DNA of 64,000 nt. Source: Bacteroidaceae bacterium. Its GTDB lineage: Bacteria; Bacteroidota; Bacteroidia; Bacteroidales; Bacteroidaceae. The stretch covers positions 45,088-109,087 of the forward strand of contig JAFSKK010000050.1 of NCBI GenBank assembly GCA_017448965.1. Reading direction: 5' to 3'. A model generated the notes under the pieces. The model was not told the origin of the DNA. It saw only the letters and a list, made by a program, of their open reading frames with translations, and ran no database searches. Of this stretch, positions 2,402 to 55,676 are shown piece after piece (the first letter of the stretch is position 1; every line of letters begins with the position of its first letter). Position numbers and translations under genes: made by a program.

Positions 2402-3391
2402 CTATAGTGTGACGTTAGCCAAATCCTCCGCATAGCCATTCATGTCAAGGCATTGCGCCCTTGTAATCCGTTTTGCGGCCGTTTCTGCACTATAATCAGC
2501 ATAAGGAGCCAATACCAACATAAATCCATCCGAGCATCCCGTCAAATCCCTGCCAGCCGGATAAATGAATTTTCCATCCAACCCGCGATTAACAATATGT
2601 ATCATCGCCAATTTCTCCTCATAACACGCCTCATACACGGCTTTCTCCGCAGTCGAGATAAAAGGTGAAATCAGCACCGTCCCTCGTCGAGCCTCTTTCA
2701 GATAAGTTGCCACCTCCTCTTGAATCTGCTCCTCTGTCAGATTACGATGGCAGCGCACTTGAAGCCGTTCTGGGCACGTCACCAAAAACGTATTCCCAAC
2801 TGCAGTATATTGATGACCCTTTTTTCCTGCCTTGAAATGATAAACTTTACGCAGTCGATCAGGAAAATGAACCTTGAGCCATAGCCGACGTGGATTATCA
2901 TTCAGATACTTAATCCATGTCTGCAGTTGACCCTTACGGAATAAGATGCGATCATTAAATCCGCGTGAAAAAAGAGAAGGCTTCTCCGAACTAAAGTACT
3001 GAGCACAGAACGAAGAATCACTCCATAACGCATGAGAACAATCGCTCTTCCATGCAGCAATTATCTTGCCCAATGAATAATCAGCCGGCAGCGTGTCGCG
3101 AACATATAATATGCCGTGAAAATGATCAGGCATAATCTGATAATGGAGCACCTGAACTCGACACCCAGTCTTCTTTGTCGCCGCCGCTGCCGTCTTCCGG
3201 AATGCCTCCGCCACATATCTTCCCAAATCCGTCGGCACTATCTCTGCCGTGCTCGGATTATCACCCACAAGCGAACCCAACACACGCTTTCGTTCCACCG
3301 TCGTTACCGTAATCAAATAGATGCATGCCAAAGTATAGTCATGCTTCTCCATCCGTCGCAGTCTGTTATGTTTAACAGGTTTTTTTTCCAT
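2402..3391 (-). CDS. REP-associated tyrosine transposase-like protein (Y1/HUH) with C-terminal extension
   Basis: This belongs to the Y1 (IS200-like/RAYT) family, which nicks single-stranded DNA at palindromic hairpins. Seen in the protein: the HUH metal motif H90-F-H92 in MPDHFHGILYV, and the likely catalytic Tyr162 with Asn166 in KYLNDNP, the spacing seen in this family. The usual family protein is about 150-230 residues; here 329, with residues about 175-329 forming an extra domain (GTVLISPFISTAEKAVYEACYEEK...) that looks like an alpha/beta Rossmann-type fold. It stands alone, without partner gene or terminal repeats, as a domesticated RAYT would. A TAACTTTG box at 3474-3481 could drive it. 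Possible substrates are the palindromic repeats elsewhere in the window (inference). Confidence 0.8.
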   Translation of the reverse strand: MEKKPVKHNRLRRMEKHDYTLACIYLITVTTVERKRVLGSLVGDNPSTAEIVPTDLGRYVAEAFRKTAAAATKKTGCRVQVLHYQIMPDHFHGILYVRDTLPADYSLGKIIAAWKSDCSHALWSDSSFCAQYFSSEKPSLFSRGFNDRILFRKGQLQTWIKYLNDNPRRLWLKVHFPDRLRKVYHFKAGKKGHQYTAVGNTFLVTCPERLQVRCHRNLTEEQIQEEVATYLKEARRGTVLISPFISTAEKAVYEACYEEKLAMIHIVNRGLDGKFIYPAGRDLTGCSDGFMLVLAPYADYSAETAAKRITRAQCLDMNGYAEDLANVTL

Positions 3392-3590: not shown

Positions 3591-5738
3591 TCACATTAAT
3601 TCATTCATTACTGCATATTGCGCATCATACCGTGTCACCTTCACCCACTCTTTCTTGGTTGAATCAAGGCTTGACGCATCCAATTCTACAGAAGTGTCGA
3701 TATCCACAGCCAAATACATTTCCGTCGTATTGACATTCTTATACCTATCAGATTCCACATCGTTTGAAGAAACCACGTTGCAAGCATTCTTTATGGCAAA
3801 CAGATGTTGCCCAATAGAGTTTCGATGGTGGAATAGCACATATCCAATGGTCGATAGATGTTCCACTATTTCCATTGAATCTTTTGTGTATTTGATACCA
3901 ACGGCAATCTTTCCAGTGGTAAGAAAATTTTTATTCTTAGCATCGTAGTTTTCCATCATCACCATCAAGACACCATCTTTCTCTGGAGCTGGAGCAATGT
4001 TACCCTCGGCTTTCCTTGCCTCTTCAATGATAGATTCAGGATTCACACCTAACTTACAAGGCTTCACTATGAAGTATTTCTCCAATTCTGCCAATAACAC
4101 TTCATTATTCTCTTCTGGATCCAACTTGTCTAGAGCCAGTGAGAATATATTGTTGTCAGCAAATGGTGTGTAGGTTTTTCCGAGCACCTCTTGAAAATGT
4201 GTCTTAAAGTATTGCTTGGCATCTACACCAGGTTTTGCAGCCATAGCATAAAAATCAAAGTCATCTTGCAGCCAGTCTTGAATTTCCTCACGGAACCTAT
4301 TGCGCACTTTCTGCTTCCACTCTGCTTTCTGAGAAGCATTGTCTCTTGCATAGAGCGAAAGAACAAAAAGGAAATTCACATCATAATGGAAAAGCAACAG
4401 CGTATCACGGTCAAACAGGCGATTCTTGAATTGTTCCTTGCGATGTCGATTATGCTTTCTGTCCGTCTTTTCGATGCCGTCGTTTGTGTAGTCAAAAGCT
4501 TCATCCATCTTTGCAGAAACAAAGAAGTTGGGGATGATATTATAGCCTTCAGTCACATCATCACGTAGTTGGATGCCAGAATCTGGCTCATCACCTCGAT
4601 TGAAGATGTCAAGATTCCATTGGATGACATTACGAGCGTATGTGTACTGTTTATAAATGGATTCCGACCCAAGCGGATGACCCATCTTATAATACTTGGA
4701 ATCTCCGATGTAATATGTCTGACCTGTCTGACTTTCAATAAGACTCTTGGCAGTATAAAGGTGGTCAACGATTTTTCCATCCTCTTGCTTCTTCTCCATA
4801 CCATCAGGCAAAGGATTGTCACCAATTAGTTCGTCAATGATAGCTTCAAAGACAATGTGGAAACTCTTCACAAGCAGATATTCTTTCTTCTCTGTGCTGA
4901 CAAATACTTGTCTGGCTTCATCGAAGAAAGCGTAACAAAGATTCCACAATTCCAAAGCTTTGTCAGAGAAATACTTGTATTTTATTTGGCGTAAACGAGT
5001 ACGACCATATCCATTCAGATAAGTCTTGAACTGTGCTCCCTTGATGAGTTGGAACTGGCACTTGATTTCTATGGAGAACCCGTAGATGTCGCCTATGTAA
5101 TTCAAGATGGAGAAGAAGATGACCAGTAACTCTTCATCGAAGTTAATTTGCCTTTTCTTGTTTACAGGTTTCAGATAGATAGGCTGTTCTCCTTGCACGA
5201 TTGCCGTTTCTCTGCTGATGGTTCGTGTCCAGTTGATTTTGTTGTAGCCAGAATGCAGATTCTTGATGATGAAGAAAAAGAAACTTTGGTTATCCTTGTT
5301 GAACTGCAACAATTGCAACAAGATGTCAAGGTAGGTGTTGCTCAATCTACGGCTTCCTTTGCCTATCTGTGCTATCTTCGTATGATATACGATATCTGTG
5401 TCATTCCGTTTGTCGTTCTTGTAAACAACAATGGCACGATAAATCCAAACAGCAAACTTATAGAGGAAATCCTTTTCTTGAGCTTCAATTTCCCTATTCT
5501 TGTCTGGCGAGACAATATCCTCTGGCTTATATTTGCCGAAAGCCAGTTCCTGACCATCTACATCTTTGAGAAGCACCTTGGGAAGAATAAACACGCAGTC
5601 CTTCAATAGGGCATTGTAGTAATACCCCACATAGTGAATGGAGACTTTACCCTCCACATTCTCCAAAGCATCAATGCCATGAAGAATCTCTTTCACTTTG
5701 GCTACGTCATACTGATATTCTTCAATAAGAATTCTCAT
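3591..5738 (-). CDS. LlaJI-type restriction endonuclease subunit (McrC-like role)
   Basis: Third gene of the restriction island. The 715-residue protein resembles LlaJI-family endonucleases, which act with a McrB-like GTPase to cut DNA. A possible PD-(D/E)xK centre is D325...D346-S-K348 in the segment TYYIGDSKYYKMG, preceded by long helical and beta segments. Its start overlaps the stop of the GTPase gene (ATGA-type overlap), a sign of translational coupling. Codon use and AT content differ from the neighbouring housekeeping genes, suggesting acquisition by transfer. The exact family assignment rests on context plus the nuclease-like motif. Confidence 0.75.
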   Translation of the reverse strand: MRILIEEYQYDVAKVKEILHGIDALENVEGKVSIHYVGYYYNALLKDCVFILPKVLLKDVDGQELAFGKYKPEDIVSPDKNREIEAQEKDFLYKFAVWIYRAIVVYKNDKRNDTDIVYHTKIAQIGKGSRRLSNTYLDILLQLLQFNKDNQSFFFFIIKNLHSGYNKINWTRTISRETAIVQGEQPIYLKPVNKKRQINFDEELLVIFFSILNYIGDIYGFSIEIKCQFQLIKGAQFKTYLNGYGRTRLRQIKYKYFSDKALELWNLCYAFFDEARQVFVSTEKKEYLLVKSFHIVFEAIIDELIGDNPLPDGMEKKQEDGKIVDHLYTAKSLIESQTGQTYYIGDSKYYKMGHPLGSESIYKQYTYARNVIQWNLDIFNRGDEPDSGIQLRDDVTEGYNIIPNFFVSAKMDEAFDYTNDGIEKTDRKHNRHRKEQFKNRLFDRDTLLLFHYDVNFLFVLSLYARDNASQKAEWKQKVRNRFREEIQDWLQDDFDFYAMAAKPGVDAKQYFKTHFQEVLGKTYTPFADNNIFSLALDKLDPEENNEVLLAELEKYFIVKPCKLGVNPESIIEEARKAEGNIAPAPEKDGVLMVMMENYDAKNKNFLTTGKIAVGIKYTKDSMEIVEHLSTIGYVLFHHRNSIGQHLFAIKNACNVVSSNDVESDRYKNVNTTEMYLAVDIDTSVELDASSLDSTKKEWVKVTRYDAQYAVMNELM

Positions 5739-7807
5739 TGATAAGCAATCTTCAGATCCAGATGATATTTGTCAGAGATTAACGGGAGGAAGTTCATCAT
5801 AACCTTACCTTTGATACCTTTTACCACATAGTAACCATCAGACTCCACGTATGAGTACTGAGATTGCTCTATGGTATCTTCCCTGTTCTTTGAAACGAGA
5901 GCGCATCCAAGAACGTTAACTTGTTTCTCTGAAGCGACGGCTTCTGCTTTGTCTAAACCGATTTTTTGGAGGACTTGCAAATATTGAGGGAACCGCTTAA
6001 TAGCGATTGTCTCATCTTCAAATTCCACATGCAAAATTCTTCTTGAATCAGGATCTGCATCGTTGATTATTTCATCTTCCTTATCATCCTCGTTATCTTC
6101 ATCTTTAGGAATGATTCCAAGATTCTTCAAGAAAAGTTCAACTTTATCTTCAACAACCTTTGTCTTTCCATCCTCATCAACAGTATAGAACTTGTTAAAT
6201 GAAAGTAGTGTGTTATCCTCGTCTTTGAACAAACCTCCTGCCTCTTCCGCAAAATCCTTGAATACATCATTCCAGATGTAGAACACAACCTTACCCACAA
6301 AGGTTTCTGCATCAACGACTCCATTCTTTGCCTTACAGAAATAATATCCTAACTTCTTGTCCTCAGAATTGGTGGTTGAGCCAATTTGATCATTCATCTT
6401 TTGGAGGAACTCCCACCAATCATAACGCTTGCCGTTGACTTCAATCCGCCATCCCTTCTTTCCGTCAGAAATAGGCATGTACTGCCAATCCCAGCGACGT
6501 TTGAAAGCTGAATCTATAGGGAAGAGTGATTGGTCGCTCGTGTTCATCGTGGCCCAAATGTGCAGATTCTTGGGAAGTTTCAACAGTTGTCCCAACCTGA
6601 TCTCTTCAGGAATCGCCTCCTCTTGTTCTTCCGTCAATGCTGCGAAGCCATATTTCTTGTCTGTCAGCAAGAACTTCTGGATATCTTCGTCTGGTGAAAT
6701 GGGATAGTCAGATTCTCCCTCATCGTTTCTGTCAAGCAACTGGAACAAGTCACCAAAGATTTGGGCACAGTTACCTCTGTTGATTTCCTCAATAATCAAG
6801 AAGAAAGGTTCATCTTGGTTTTTCCATGCTTCCGTATAAGCTTTCAAGAAGGCCTGTGGCACAAACTCATAGACAATCTTCTTCTCCTTTCGTGGCGTCC
6901 CATCAGGATTCTCCACAGGAACAGCCTTTGTGCCTATCATGGTCATCATAGGCACTTCCACCGACGTAGGCTTATATGCACCCACAAAGGTCGAATAGTC
7001 GCTGTCAGGATGGAATGTTGTACGCACATTAGGCAAACCCTTGTCATCTACTTCTCTCTTGATGGTATTGGATTTGCCAGTACCAGGAGCACCATAGAAG
7101 ATTTGCTGGTGGGATCTTTTTTCATTTTTATCTATCTTTGATACATCCTTACCATTACCATAGAGTGAATAATAATCTGATTGTAAGATTAATACATAAT
7201 CAGTAATGTCTAATCCCGCATACAATGTTTGTACAAATGGACTACGACTGATTTCACCAGGGGAAGCAACGACGCTCACCTTCTTGGCATCGATATTATT
7301 TCTAGTAACATCAACACCTATTTTACTAAGCTCGGACTTCAATTGTGACTCAGAATACAACGAATCTGTAAAAGCAAGCGTTTTAGATTGAGTGCTAAAA
7401 CTATTCGCAATTATATCTGATGATATATTGAATTCTTTTGCAAATATTGTAATGAGGTCACTATTCGTTACGTTGTCGGTAAAAGCTTTCCTACGATATG
7501 CCCAAACTATCACATCAAAAATATCAGGAGAATATCTTCCTTGGTCATTAAAATAATGATCCCATTTATTAGAGAATACTACATATAGAGAGCGCCCACC
7601 ATCATAACTTCTCTTCGTCTGTGATAAGTTAAATATTTCTTCAAGAAAATTGGAAACAACATTCATGTTTACTTCATACGGAACTAATGGTCGAATGCTA
7701 CTCTGACAGCCCTTCAATATAGCCAAATATCCCCATGACTTGTTGGTCATGGAATCTTGAAATCCCTTATAGGCATTTACAACAGTTTCAATCGAAAAGT
7801 ACTTCAT
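5735..7807 (-). CDS. McrB-like AAA+ GTPase, restriction subunit
   Basis: 690 residues. Residues 1-225 form an N-terminal region of unknown fold, probably for DNA recognition. The AAA+ core follows: Walker A GAPGTGKSN at 239-247, an acidic Walker B (FFLIIEEINRGN), and the McrB-style signature MNTSDQSLFPIDSAFKRRW. McrB proteins hydrolyse GTP and assemble on DNA to activate the nuclease subunit, encoded here by the overlapping downstream gene. It begins two bases after the methyltransferase stop, so all three genes should share a transcript. Confidence 0.88.
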   Translation of the reverse strand: MKYFSIETVVNAYKGFQDSMTNKSWGYLAILKGCQSSIRPLVPYEVNMNVVSNFLEEIFNLSQTKRSYDGGRSLYVVFSNKWDHYFNDQGRYSPDIFDVIVWAYRRKAFTDNVTNSDLITIFAKEFNISSDIIANSFSTQSKTLAFTDSLYSESQLKSELSKIGVDVTRNNIDAKKVSVVASPGEISRSPFVQTLYAGLDITDYVLILQSDYYSLYGNGKDVSKIDKNEKRSHQQIFYGAPGTGKSNTIKREVDDKGLPNVRTTFHPDSDYSTFVGAYKPTSVEVPMMTMIGTKAVPVENPDGTPRKEKKIVYEFVPQAFLKAYTEAWKNQDEPFFLIIEEINRGNCAQIFGDLFQLLDRNDEGESDYPISPDEDIQKFLLTDKKYGFAALTEEQEEAIPEEIRLGQLLKLPKNLHIWATMNTSDQSLFPIDSAFKRRWDWQYMPISDGKKGWRIEVNGKRYDWWEFLQKMNDQIGSTTNSEDKKLGYYFCKAKNGVVDAETFVGKVVFYIWNDVFKDFAEEAGGLFKDEDNTLLSFNKFYTVDEDGKTKVVEDKVELFLKNLGIIPKDEDNEDDKEDEIINDADPDSRRILHVEFEDETIAIKRFPQYLQVLQKIGLDKAEAVASEKQVNVLGCALVSKNREDTIEQSQYSYVESDGYYVVKGIKGKVMMNFLPLISDKYHLDLKIAYQ

Positions 7808-7809
7808 TG

Positions 7810-8838
7810 CTATTTGTTGTTTGCGTAAGTTTTAATCATTTCTTTCATTATTAACTTGATAATAGGCACACTCACCGAATTACCCAATTGATGATAGGCC
7901 TGAGCATCCGAAACAGGGAATTTGAAATCATCGGGGAATCCCTGTAGCCGTTGAGCTTCTAATACAGAGAGTTTTCTTCTAATATCCCAGAGTTTAGGTG
8001 TTCTATTGGCGATAATCGTTGAAGCATATGTATCAAGACAAGAGTAGAATGCTTCTTGAATTTGTGTCTTAGCAACATCACCAACATGAAAACGCAAAGA
8101 ACCATCAGGTTTCTGAAAAGAATATATACCATACTTGCCCTTTTTGGTATGAGGCTTATATTTAGAATTATCATGTTTGACTCTATCCCCAGGTTTAGCA
8201 ACAGAAAAATGATAATCGATTCTGTCAAGTTCAAATTGAGGAAGACGTAACGATGGATTATCATCGCCCAAGTTGACAATATCTCTTAAAGTAGGATGTC
8301 CACCAATAGGCTTTGGCCATGAGAAATTGAAATCATTTCGGAAAGCCACACAATACCATCGTTCTCTCTTTTGAGGCAAACCAAAATCAAGAGAAGAGAG
8401 TATTGTCCAATGTGGAAAATAGCCCAATTCTTTCAACTTGTCGATGATTATATTAAGTGTCTTTCCTTCCTCGTGAGACTTCAGACCCTTAACATTCTCC
8501 AGAAAGACCATAGGTGGCTTATGGTATTCAAGGATTCTACAAATATCAAAGAAGAGAGTTCCCCTAATTTCATCATTAAAACCTTGCTTTTCACCAGCAT
8601 AGCTAAAAGGTTGACACGGGAACCCCGCTGCTAGAATATCAAATGGAGGTATATCTGTTGCTTTAATCTTTTTAATATCACCTTCTGGTACTTCACCAAA
8701 ATTTGCTTGATATGTTTCTTGTGCAAACTTGTCATTATCAGAAGAAAACACGCATTTCACATTGTTTTCTTCCATTGCAAGACGAAAACCGCCAATCCCA
8801 CAAAACAAGTCGATTCCCTTATATTTCTTCTTCGACAT
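7810..8838 (-). CDS. DNA (cytosine-5-)-methyltransferase
   Basis: 342 residues with the full set of C5-methyltransferase motifs in order: SAM-binding DLFCGIGGFRLA (10-21), catalytic Cys75 in GFPCQPFSY, ENV, QKRERWYCV, and the C-terminal LQGFPDDF and YHQLGNSVSVPII. It should protect the host target site against the nuclease encoded downstream. It is first in the operon. The start codon lies only a few bases after a hairpin whose 3' arm carries GAGAGGG, a possible ribosome-binding site. LlaJI itself has two methyltransferases; only one is present here, so the target may be palindromic or modification may be on one strand. Confidence 0.95.
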   Translation of the reverse strand: MSKKKYKGIDLFCGIGGFRLAMEENNVKCVFSSDNDKFAQETYQANFGEVPEGDIKKIKATDIPPFDILAAGFPCQPFSYAGEKQGFNDEIRGTLFFDICRILEYHKPPMVFLENVKGLKSHEEGKTLNIIIDKLKELGYFPHWTILSSLDFGLPQKRERWYCVAFRNDFNFSWPKPIGGHPTLRDIVNLGDDNPSLRLPQFELDRIDYHFSVAKPGDRVKHDNSKYKPHTKKGKYGIYSFQKPDGSLRFHVGDVAKTQIQEAFYSCLDTYASTIIANRTPKLWDIRRKLSVLEAQRLQGFPDDFKFPVSDAQAYHQLGNSVSVPIIKLIMKEMIKTYANNK

Positions 8839-8842
8839 TTAA

Positions 8843-8870
8843 AAGCCCTCTCTTCGTTTCGAAAAGGGGG
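8843..8870 (-). promoter_or_regulatory. Hairpin covering the methyltransferase ribosome-binding site
   Basis: On the minus strand CCCCTTTTCG pairs with CGAAGAGAGGG (loop about 3 bases, one mismatch), followed by CTTTTAAATG where ATG is the methyltransferase start. The 3' arm contains GAGAGG, so the hairpin may hide the ribosome-binding site. With its short T-run it could also end transcription of the RNA upstream. Which applies cannot be decided from sequence. Confidence 0.55.
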
Positions 8871-9019
8871 CGTGGAAGAAGTCTGTTCGACCAAGGCTTA
8901 GCACAGCCTACATCAGACAACAATCCATCTGTCCACGCCCTTATGAGCGTAAACATCCGATTGCTTGTCCGACTGATGTGTTCTGTCAGTGTGCTAATTC
9001 TGGTCGATCAGTCAAGTCA
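8868..9019 (-). ncRNA. Candidate structured leader RNA of the restriction operon
   Basis: No coding frame looks real here, yet nested inverted repeats fill the stretch: 8887-8893 with 9001-9007, 8898-8905 with 8990-8997 (TTAGCACA/TGTGCTAA), 8910-8916 with 8973-8979 (ACATCAG/CTGATGT), 8916-8925 with 8959-8969, and 8935-8938 with 8947-8950. A competing 9-bp pairing, 8868-8876 with 8932-8940 (GGGCGTGGA/TCCACGCCC), would break part of the rod, as in a switch. The strand is inferred from the promoter at 9457-9464 and from the direction of the operon. It does not match any riboswitch I know. Confidence 0.5.
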
Positions 9020-9129
9020 AGGATGTCAAAGACTCTATTTCCTTATTCGTTATTTTTTTCGATCTCTTTTTGTAAAGAGTTGTTCGCAAGCATCCCAAGC
9101 GAACGAGTTAGTAATTATGGCTAACTACA

Positions 9130-9457
9130 CATAAAAAACGTGGATGCTTGCACCTGCCTGTTCGTCATTCGAGGTCTTAGGAAACCTATACAAAAACAGA
9201 CAGAGAAACACCCACATTTGGAGTATATAAACACCCGTAAAGTGTGCGTTGAGGACGCTTGATCCTCGCAGCACACTACGGAGAGTATATACTACACCCC
9301 GTGGAGTTACCCTTGCATTGTTCTTGATTGTATATTCGGAAGTTCCTAAGTTTCGAATGACCAAAAACAAAGCGTCAGTAACGCCTTTTAATATGTAGTG
9401 CTCCACCCATCGGCTGTTCCCTCGCATCGGGTAGCGCATGTGGGCAGATGCAGTTGC
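9130..9457 (-). ncRNA. Candidate structured noncoding RNA with a 6S-like rod
   Basis: Paired segments, from outside in: 9443-9451 with 9150-9158; 9353-9361 with 9164-9172 (TCGAATGAC); 9343-9350 with 9176-9183 (TTCCTAAG); 9328-9334 with 9187-9193; a large open bubble; 9301-9304 with 9212-9215; 9286-9292 with 9223-9229; 9277-9281 with 9235-9239; 9271-9276 with 9242-9247 (GCACAC); 9263-9267 with 9251-9255. The inner rod of about 198 nt with a central bubble has the shape of 6S RNA, but the extra outer stem and 5' domain do not. A promoter box lies just upstream at 9457-9464. It may be one RNA together with the structured stretch at 8868-9019. Confidence 0.55.
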
Positions 9458-9464
9458 AAAAGTA
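9457..9464 (-). promoter_or_regulatory. Promoter -7 box (TACTTTTG) of the structured RNA
   Basis: On the minus strand TTG (9485-9487), 20 bases, then TACTTTTG: good spacing for a Bacteroidota -33/-7 promoter. Transcription would begin near 9450, exactly where the outermost stem of the proposed RNA starts. This is the only clear promoter found upstream of the restriction operon. Confidence 0.65.
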
Positions 9465-9605
9465 CGAAAGATTTTTGAACCGAACAACTATTCTTGGGAA
9501 AAATGTTGTTTTCTGTATGTGCAGTTGTTGGCAGGATGAAAGAACTGTGCAGACGAGTGTGGCGTTTCCTCTCAATTGACACTTCCACTGCTTCCTTTTC
9601 GATGC

Positions 9606-9705
9606 TTCCACTACCTCGAAAACGGTGTGAGTCACACCGCCACCCTCGGTCTGAGTCAGACCGACCCCCTCGGTGTGAGTCACACCGATTTTGAGGCGGT
9701 GGAGG
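9606..9705. repeat. Triple-palindrome intergenic element, copy 1
   Basis: Flank TTCCACTACCTC (9606-9617) and a degenerate inverted partner at 9693-9705 enclose three 17-base palindromes: 9623-9639 CGGTGTGAGTCACACCG, 9647-9663 CGGTCTGAGTCAGACCG and 9671-9687 CGGTGTGAGTCACACCG, repeating every 24 bases. The middle copy changes both arms together (GTG to CTG, CAC to CAG), keeping the pairing. Confidence 0.9.
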
Positions 9706-9763
9706 TATCGTTCTGGTGGTTCTTCAATAGAGTAATATGCGGCAGTGGAAGTGGAGATACACA

Positions 9764-9805
9764 AATGACCGGCGTACACTCGTGTGTGTGTACGCCGGTC
9801 ATTTG
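9764..9805. terminator. Terminator-like hairpin after the LRR gene
   Basis: A perfect 16-bp inverted repeat: AAATGACCGGCGTACA (9764-9779) and TGTACGCCGGTCATTT (9790-9805), with a 10-base loop. It lies 38 bases past the stop of the minus-strand LRR gene. The terminal A/T bases can serve as a weak U-tract in either direction. Confidence 0.7.
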
Positions 9806-9842
9806 CGTGTGTTCCCTTAGAATAATGTGGGAAGTGTGTATT

Positions 9843-31709: not shown

Positions 31710-31781
31710 CCCTTTGGTTTCACCCGATTCGTTTATTCCGTTTCATCTGTTTTTCCACTGTAATAAGTACAAAAAGGATAG

Positions 31782-31882
31782 TTCCACTACCTCAAAATCG
31801 GTATGACTCACACCGGTAGTATCGGTCTGACTCAGACCGCCTATAGTGGTGTGAGTCACACCGATTCAGAGGCTGTGGAAGT
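31782..31882. repeat. Triple-palindrome intergenic element, copy 3
   Basis: TTCCACTACCTC flank and a degenerate inverse end (GAGGCTGTGGAAG) enclose palindromes at 31799-31815, 31823-31839 (CGGTCTGACTCAGACCG) and 31847-31863, period 24. The first is imperfect (CGGTATGACTCACACCG). It lies between two convergent genes. Confidence 0.88.
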
Positions 31883-45719: not shown

Positions 45720-45860
45720 CGACTTTTTCTTCGAAAACCCACCACAAAACGATGCGAACTTACATTATTTTATGAAAAAACACGCTTACCCTTCCTCTTT
45801 TGTTATTTCGGCACTTCCACTGCCACCCTTTCAGCGCTTCCGCAGCCTCCTTTTCGATGC

Positions 45861-45960
45861 TTCCACTACCTCAAAAACGGTGTGACTCACACCGCCACCC
45901 TCGGTCTGAGTCACACCGACCCCCTCGGTCTGAGTCACACCGTTTTTGAGGTAGTGGAAG
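45861..45960. repeat. Triple-palindrome intergenic element, copy 4
   Basis: The best-kept copy: TTCCACTACCTCAAAAACGG and the matching inverse GTTTTTGAGGTAGTGGAAG enclose modules at 45878-45894, 45902-45918 and 45926-45942, period 24. The second and third carry CTG against CAC arms, a one-base mismatch each. It lies between divergent purL and ychF; the rest of the 509-base gap holds only GC-rich low-complexity sequence and promoters. Confidence 0.92.
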
Positions 45961-46098
45961 CATCGTTTGGGTGGTATTGGAACTGAGGAAATGGAGGCGG
46001 TGGAAGTGAAGATGCGGAGGAGGTGTTTCTTTGCCCCTCCTGGTGGGCGAAAAAGTGATTTTATGGGTGTGTTTTCCCATTCTTTCCAAAATATTCCG

Positions 46099-55448: not shown

Positions 55449-55547
55449 TCCACTACCTCAAAATCGGTGTGACTCACACCGCCACCCCCGGTCTGACTCA
55501 CACCGACCCCCTCGGTCTGAGTCACACCGTTTTCGAGGTAGTGGAAG
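55449..55547. repeat. Triple-palindrome intergenic element, copy 5
   Basis: TCCACTACCTC flank and the inverse GAGGTAGTGGAAG enclose modules at 55465-55481, 55489-55505 and 55513-55529, period 24. The rest of the 407-base gap between the GNAT-like gene and the BspA remnant is GC-rich and without features. Confidence 0.9.
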
Positions 55548-55676
55548 CACCATCTCAGACCCACTGGAAGGAACGAAGCAGCGGCAACGGGTAAACCTCC
55601 CCACCACAAAAAAGCGCACCGCCCACAACCCATCGGCTGCAAGCGGTGCGCGCTATTGCTCTATGTTCCTTCGTGC

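Follow-up and report, generated by a model that had tools for sequence, protein, structure and literature searches.

A structured two-module RNA, probably a transcription-attenuation leader, precedes a restriction-modification operon in a Bacteroidaceae bacterium and recurs before defence and cell-surface genes of its relatives

About 610 gene-free bases on the minus strand of the window (the whole 64,000-nucleotide stretch of Bacteroidaceae DNA that was analysed) end at the start codon, at 8838, of a C5-cytosine DNA methyltransferase gene. They are best explained as a cis-acting transcription-attenuation 5′ leader of the restriction-modification (R-M) operon that follows, a reading to which we assign a probability of about 0.63. 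Among rumen relatives of Prevotella the leader probably decides whether the downstream R-M or cell-surface genes are transcribed. Sequence and fold provide a promoter, a leader and a terminator-shaped hairpin before the gene, as well as a mutually exclusive antiterminator helix that is kept in relatives.

A promoter at 9457–9464 with a TTG-N20 arrangement had been proposed from the letters of this stretch and is confirmed, with TTG at 9487–9485 lying 20 bases from TACTTTTG at 9464–9457. The resulting pattern TTG-N20-TACTTTTG (9487–9457, minus strand) is presumably of the Bacteroidetes type, and from its position transcription is expected to start near 9450. The motif TAnnTTTG is found within 260 nt upstream of the core of module 1 (see below) in 119 of 132 non-redundant copies of the leader, and 119 of the 138 TAnnTTTG sites in these copies fall 120–179 nt upstream of the core, which is thus a fixed place. 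Homology with cassettes in two other genomes, G016 and G011, starts close by, at 9467. The minus strand from 9456 to 8842 is strongly structured, with a folding energy of −219 kcal/mol versus −164 kcal/mol (sd 7.6) for dinucleotide shuffles (z −7.3, with 0 of 20 shuffles as low). The sequence-only reading had described helices nesting consistently from 9451 to 8843, and this did not hold. The leader instead comprises two independent modules joined by an A-rich linker, at about 9450–9081 (module 1, a general leader RNA studied in 144 copies) and 9030–8841 (module 2, a methyltransferase-specific leader RNA recognised by clustering the downstream leader stretches), and several of its conserved helices are pseudoknotted, some being mutually exclusive. 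The same reading had seen no genuine coding frame here, and relatives agree. The core of module 1, about 290 nt long, is open in just 2, 3 and 5 of 131 copies in the three frames, and stops and indels lead us to reject a protein-coding gene. An upstream frame extension of some methyltransferases (in L086 and L087, for example) belongs to module 2, and the methyltransferase reading frame of the window starts at 8838.

A DNA search of 101 genomes, the window's own included, gave leader matches in 34. Eight relatives match over nearly the full length, and the C5 methyltransferases behind them are of more than one kind; other relatives share only the first ~350 nt and have assorted genes downstream. 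The covariance model R1, which covers 171 positions and was used with a cut-off of E≤1e-4, finds module 1 RNA in 33 of 45 genomes of the genus, with three copies in the window's own genome. With that genome included, R1 matches 9 of 295 genomes and 8 of 184 genera in a sample of the order; in a phylum sample of 296 it matches the window's own genome and none of the 295 others. A pattern of 21 fixed bases, none of them covered by R1, matched 115 stretches in GTDB genomes, and among the 80 of these that were listed, which come largely from Prevotellaceae and, by their titles, from rumen or other ruminant samples, 73 match R1 too. The copies used number 144, of which 132 are non-redundant after removal of 12 near-duplicates. 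R1 matches below 40 bits, opposite-strand shadows in the genus and order searches and three contig-edge genus matches were left out, as were four short matches among the 73 R1-matched pattern loci, leaving 69. The alignment holds 102 copies, the other 30 being too similar, too short or interrupted by N. One copy, L144, scores 41 bits, has the longest branch in the leader tree and may not be a true member of the family.

Module 1 contains a hairpin, T0, of sequence AAGGCGUUACUGACGCUUU followed by GUUUUUGG (9362–9387), which was picked up by a terminator scan and is pause- or terminator-like. It is among the most conserved stretches of the module, hairpin and U-rich tract being present in 96 of 131 copies versus 8 of 122 control stretches. 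The 5′ strand of stem H6 (9373–9362 paired with 9326–9315) overlaps T0, and its pairs, counted over 102 copies, are mostly of one type and show little covariation. The loop of H6 holds the 5′ strands of helices H1 (9361–9354 with 9164–9171) and H2 (9350–9342 with 9176–9182), which together form a loop-loop pseudoknot between H6 and the loop of the large hairpin T1. This pseudoknot has the highest de novo covariation, that is, the highest column-pair scores obtained with no assumed structure from the alignment of 102 sequences; antiparallel helices rank at the top of these scores, which carry no phylogenetic null model and come from related copies. H1 is 85% and H2 90% paired, compared with 34–54% when the strands are slid by one or two positions. 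An inner hairpin, CCGUAGUGUGC...GCACACUUUACGG (9236–9280), is 93% paired, falling to 10–28% when slid by one and to 72% when slid by two, the latter because of a GUGU repeat.

T1 (9133–9216) is intrinsic-terminator-like and consists of a long hairpin, H3 (9216–9139), with an energy of −32.6 kcal/mol, and six U residues at 9138–9133. Its stem (9214–9194 with 9141–9163) is a covarying helix of 15 pairs. At least five U within 8 nt follow T1 in 130 of 130 copies versus 17% of random places, and at least six in 98% of copies versus 5%. The simple terminator scan did not list T1 because the loop is longer than the 8 nt that the scan allows. Taken over H1, H2, the T1 stem and the helix H4 described below, standard pairs occupy 85–90% of cells versus 27–59% when slid by one or two, and cells with both bases changed number 214 for H1, 150 for H2, 193 for the T1 stem (base plus top) and 91 for H4. 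A first alternative fold, CCACG:CGUGG, was set aside as conserved but hardly covarying.

Both arms of T1 have a second possible partner. About 40 nt beyond T1 lies the A″ hairpin (9081–9104), whose loop (9094–9085) is complementary to the 3′ arm of T1 (9150–9141), forming H4. The core of H4 (9148–9144 with 9089–9093) covaries and is 87% paired versus 32–53% when slid. The base of T1 and H4 are mutually exclusive helices which both covary. Over 131 copies, pairing with a copy's own A″ partner has an energy of −13.3 kcal/mol versus −10.1 kcal/mol when partners are exchanged between copies (0 of 10,000 permutations; permutation sd 0.23), although just 4 copies have their own A″ loop as the single best of the 131. 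The polymerase is already past T1 when the A″ loop is made, so the loop cannot decide termination there; H4 may hold the on-state in place or flag it for later events. For the 5′ arm of T1, complementarity to the 3′ strand of H6 is seen in 840 of 917 cells versus 25–52% when slid, and this alternative shows little covariation, with 27 double-change cells of the 917. Minimum-energy folds of 130 copies divide into 46 with T1 formed, 22 with A′–A″ pairing, 50 with A′ paired further upstream and 12 others.

The stretches between module 1 and the gene include two unrelated types of module 2, type A with 30 non-redundant copies (the window included) and type B with 15; another 81 downstream leader stretches did not cluster, so many copies are without a recognised second module. 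The first gene after type A is a DNA methyltransferase in all 30 copies (29 C5 and one D12 adenine). Of the 15 type B copies, 14 have a C5 methyltransferase as first gene, and in the fifteenth (L173) a gene reading as one comes next. In type A the top de novo pairs form the long-range helix P1 (9007–9001 with 8893–8887 and 8997–8991 with 8904–8898), paired in 180 of 182 and 203 of 203 cells, respectively; sliding lowers the first to 51%. In the window both sides of P1 are unlike those of most relatives and compensate for each other. The covariation in related genomes on which the sequence-only reading had made its proposal depend is thereby present in helices of both modules.

Between 8954 and 8841 type A also contains four strands, 1 (8954–8945), 2 (8940–8931), 3 (8875–8861) and 4 (8855–8845), which over the 30 copies pair as 1:2 in 297 of 300 cells, 2:3 in 240 of 240 and 3:4 in 283 of 319. 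Helix 2:3 is nearly invariant; neither this helix nor the alternative pairing of the T1 5′ arm is proved by covariation. Hairpin T2 (8871–8845), listed by the terminator scan, has an energy of −14.0 kcal/mol in the window and is followed by UUUU at 8844–8841, two bases before the ATG. A T2 hairpin and U-tract touching the start codon are present in 27 of 30 type A leaders, the other three having no clear T2. Type B ends in a GCCCC...GGGGC-UUUU hairpin of its own, clear in 10 of 15 copies and somewhat further from the gene. The earlier proposal that the RNA would end at the hairpin abutting the methyltransferase start is supported to the extent that T2, a terminator by shape, lies there. Type A leaves no space for a promoter between T2 and the start codon, and because T2 touches that codon, methyltransferase mRNA from any upstream promoter must read through it. 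A transcript begun at the 9464 promoter also has T1 to pass.

These features suggest the following scheme. Polymerase would start near 9450, make module 1, meet T1 and, about 290 nt later, meet T2 just before the methyltransferase start codon. In the off-state the leader would fold so that the terminators form. In the on-state the 5′ arm of T1 would pair with the upstream 3′ strand of H6, strand 3 of module 2 would pair with strand 2 rather than strand 4, and once T1 had been read through its 3′ arm would pair with the A″ loop. A signal, which might be a protein, a ligand or the state of translation or elongation, would set the balance and so make operon expression conditional. Attenuators of amino-acid operons use strands that pair as 1:2, 2:3 and 3:4, and type A resembles them in having three mutually exclusive helices of this arrangement and a terminator just before the gene; it differs in having covarying long-range helices as well and no recognisable conserved leader peptide. 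With regard to a riboswitch, the RNA structure is conserved, but the genes downstream of the leaders share no evident metabolite. The suggestion of one or two large noncoding RNAs thus stands in part, since the RNA is structured, has two parts and lies behind a promoter; an independent product is possible only as a prematurely terminated form, and position and modularity favour a 5′ leader.

The operon of the window begins with the C5-cytosine DNA methyltransferase (7810–8838; PF00145, E 4.8e-91) and continues, at 3591–7807, with a 690-residue AAA protein that matches type II restriction-enzyme profiles and a 715-residue protein (3591–5738) for which Pfam and PADLOC gave no match. Proteins with a start like that of the 715-residue protein recur behind C5 methyltransferases at three other loci (L082, L178 and L216). 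Among 74 copies found by R1, a forward gene begins within 600 nt in 69; of the five exceptions, two (L116 and L133) proved to have a NusG gene in that place, one (L128) reaches the end of its contig, and the remaining two (L127 and L144) are doubtful. The 68 first genes identified for the R1-found copies include 17 C5 methyltransferases, five N6 methyltransferases, three NusG proteins, two TdeIII endonucleases, four and three members of two acyltransferase families and, among others, DndC. The 55 first genes of the pattern-found copies include 36 of the C5 family, and about 45 belong to R-M systems when the matches to other methyltransferases and to TdeIII are counted. By class, the leaders precede R-M, Dnd, acyltransferase, UpxY-like and surface-protein genes. 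Since 41 of the 45 genus genomes together hold 143 PF00145 matches, only a minority of C5 methyltransferases lie behind the leader. A conserved protein of about 90 residues (MAKY..DSHITTVE...) follows the leader at five loci (L178, L183, L215, L216 and L223); at the three that were read further (L178, L183 and L216) C5-methyltransferase-like genes come next, and the L178 protein has no Pfam or PADLOC match.

On a tree of the 102 aligned leaders the subfamilies follow the class of the downstream genes, with R-M, envelope and other genes grouping apart: the gene class changes 15 times versus 39.4 times with shuffled labels (0 of 200 shuffles as low), the labels being assigned partly by family matches and partly by reading; L167, whose record ends before the gene, is labelled R-M by default, and L173, L178 and L183 by a later gene. 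The envelope class alone changes twice versus 16.1 times when shuffled. Within the R-M part of the tree the systems are unrelated. At the chromosomal site of the window, genome G036 is 91% identical over 13411–9097; past the break, which falls inside the A″ hairpin, it has different genes before the similarity returns near groES/groEL (named by reading). In G016 the unit 9467–3613 matches at 79% and the flanks are without a match. Together these comparisons indicate that the exchangeable unit begins at the promoter.

Several other elements were seen around the unit. At the G036 site (L081) a serine recombinase of the Resolvase family is encoded at 1285–1971 after the leader. Beyond the far end of the R-M unit the window encodes a 329-residue protein with an HFH motif (2402–3391) and no Pfam match, which we take to resemble a small Y1-type transposase, and a similar-looking protein is present in L081. 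Palindromic, REP-like intergenic repeats with units such as CGGTGTGACTCACACCG / GGTCTGACTCAGACC lie at 9605–9710, 31767–31882, 45812–46008 and 55449–55549, and match one another and a stretch of G036. Between an LRR gene and the leader is a large inverted repeat, AATGACCGGCGTACAC...GTGTACGCCGGTCATT (9755–9841), probably the terminator of the LRR gene.

Three further occurrences of the promoter and first hairpin in the genome of the window (G000) lack a complete module 1 (L274, L275 and L276, on C21, C26 and C67). On C21 the leader still has H6 and some of the T1 5′ arm; the inner hairpin and the T1 3′ arm are missing, and the sequence continues into a gene that by reading encodes an N6 methyltransferase. 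On C26 and C67 other genes start almost immediately after the promoter and first hairpin. The similarity on C26 also spans sequence upstream of the promoter (window 9600–9408). Because these truncated copies join the promoter to a gene without T1, the promoter can work without the attenuator. They could be natural escapes from attenuation, or the promoter could be a wider repeat to which module 1 was added.

Processive antiterminator RNAs such as put and EAR suggest another way in which module 1 might act. It could be a self-sufficient RNA of this kind, bistable and pseudoknotted, that stays with the polymerase and lets it pass T1 and then, locked by A′–A″ pairing, ignore T2 and further terminators inside the operon; such a class of RNA-only antitermination leaders would coordinate a regulon of phage-defence and cell-surface genes across rumen Prevotella without a specialised NusG. 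The generality of module 1 and the exchangeability of the second terminator module agree with this, as do the fact that A″ can act only after readthrough of T1 and the presence of leaders in genomes where just one NusG was found. The 81 unclustered stretches, however, leave many copies with no recognised second module, and we regard this version as possible but unlikely. That module 1 is a stable trans-acting small RNA ending at the U-tract of T1, with leaky readthrough into the gene behind it and A′ arms that may pair in trans with the A″ loops of other copies, appears improbable. The RNA's own promoter, compact pseudoknotted structure, U6 end and several copies per genome would suit such a role, but the copies precede forward genes (69 of 74), the better fit of A′ to its own A″ than to those of other loci argues for action in cis, and a second module with its own terminator would be left without a role.

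The leader might also serve a specialised NusG protein (UpxY-, LoaP- or RfaH-like) as its site of recognition and antitermination, with T0, a conserved hairpin followed by a U-rich tract, as the pause site. Five copies lie directly before NusG-like genes (L116, L121, L129, L132 and L133), and two reports describe terminators in the leaders of UpxY-controlled capsule operons and of LoaP-controlled antibiotic operons (PMC7819879, PMC12691694). UpxY proteins keep transcription from ending early in the capsule leaders of Bacteroides fragilis (PMC7819879). Those leaders, of the same phylum, likewise stand before accessory genes and are subject to premature termination, but most members of the present family stand before DNA-methyltransferase or other genes, and no mention of a large covarying pseudoknotted RNA was found for them. 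The LoaP-dependent dfn leader of Bacillus velezensis is comparable: a hairpin in the RNA, a site of pausing and an intrinsic terminator lie within 417 nt ahead of a long accessory operon (PMC12691694). It differs in its small hairpin and in having no tandem exchangeable attenuator module. In two leader-bearing genomes that are nearly complete, G016 (98%) and G025 (99%), a search at E≤1e-3 gave just one NusG apiece, scoring like the housekeeping protein, so a UpxY-type NusG is unlikely to be the general factor and a universal role for UpxY is not supported. The window's own genome (86% complete) also shows one NusG at that level, and the four NusG-linked leaders, out of five, that the tree includes form a separate branch. 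We know of no sequence relation between the dfn leader and the present one. Control by a specialised NusG is accordingly quite improbable for the family. It is very improbable that the conservation reflects a DNA recombination site for swapping defence genes, with incidental RNA structure: the G036 break inside the A″ hairpin and the truncated copies, in which the promoter is followed by other genes, would suit such a site, but compensatory base changes in several helices need an RNA and the leader type depends on the gene class.

Known families do not account for the RNA that we read as an attenuation leader. A search with Rfam 15 at gathering scores gave no match in the whole window or in 20 relative loci, in line with the earlier view that the RNA had not been described before. 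At E up to 10 the region 8780–9620 gave seven Rfam matches, all far below gathering scores and none to a 6S model. A divergent 6S RNA had been suggested and is rejected. The leader shares with 6S RNA a long rod-like noncoding form but is multi-copy and positioned in cis before genes, and 6S RNA is without terminators and pseudoknots of the kind seen here. A tRNA and tmRNA search of the window found none. The query 9110–9400, searched in distant mode, matched nothing in collections of 50,697 phage and 72,556 plasmid records, and a single exact pattern matched nothing in IMG/VR, so a mobile-element reading was rejected. Among the papers listed by literature searches largely outside the subscription journals, none dealt with a structured leader or attenuator for R-M operons in Prevotella or Bacteroidales, and the leader family has apparently not been catalogued before.

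Controller proteins and promoters are the usual explanation for how R-M genes are controlled. In the present case a large RNA family, whose two exchangeable second modules end in terminators at the start codon or shortly before it, appears to gate many unrelated R-M, Dnd, acyltransferase and surface-protein genes of rumen bacteria. Its confirmation would add to the known RNAs a covarying pseudoknotted RNA of more than 300 nt that is absent from Rfam 15, and how defence operons stay off would become testable in cultured strains. One RNA mechanism would then link phage defence and surface variation.
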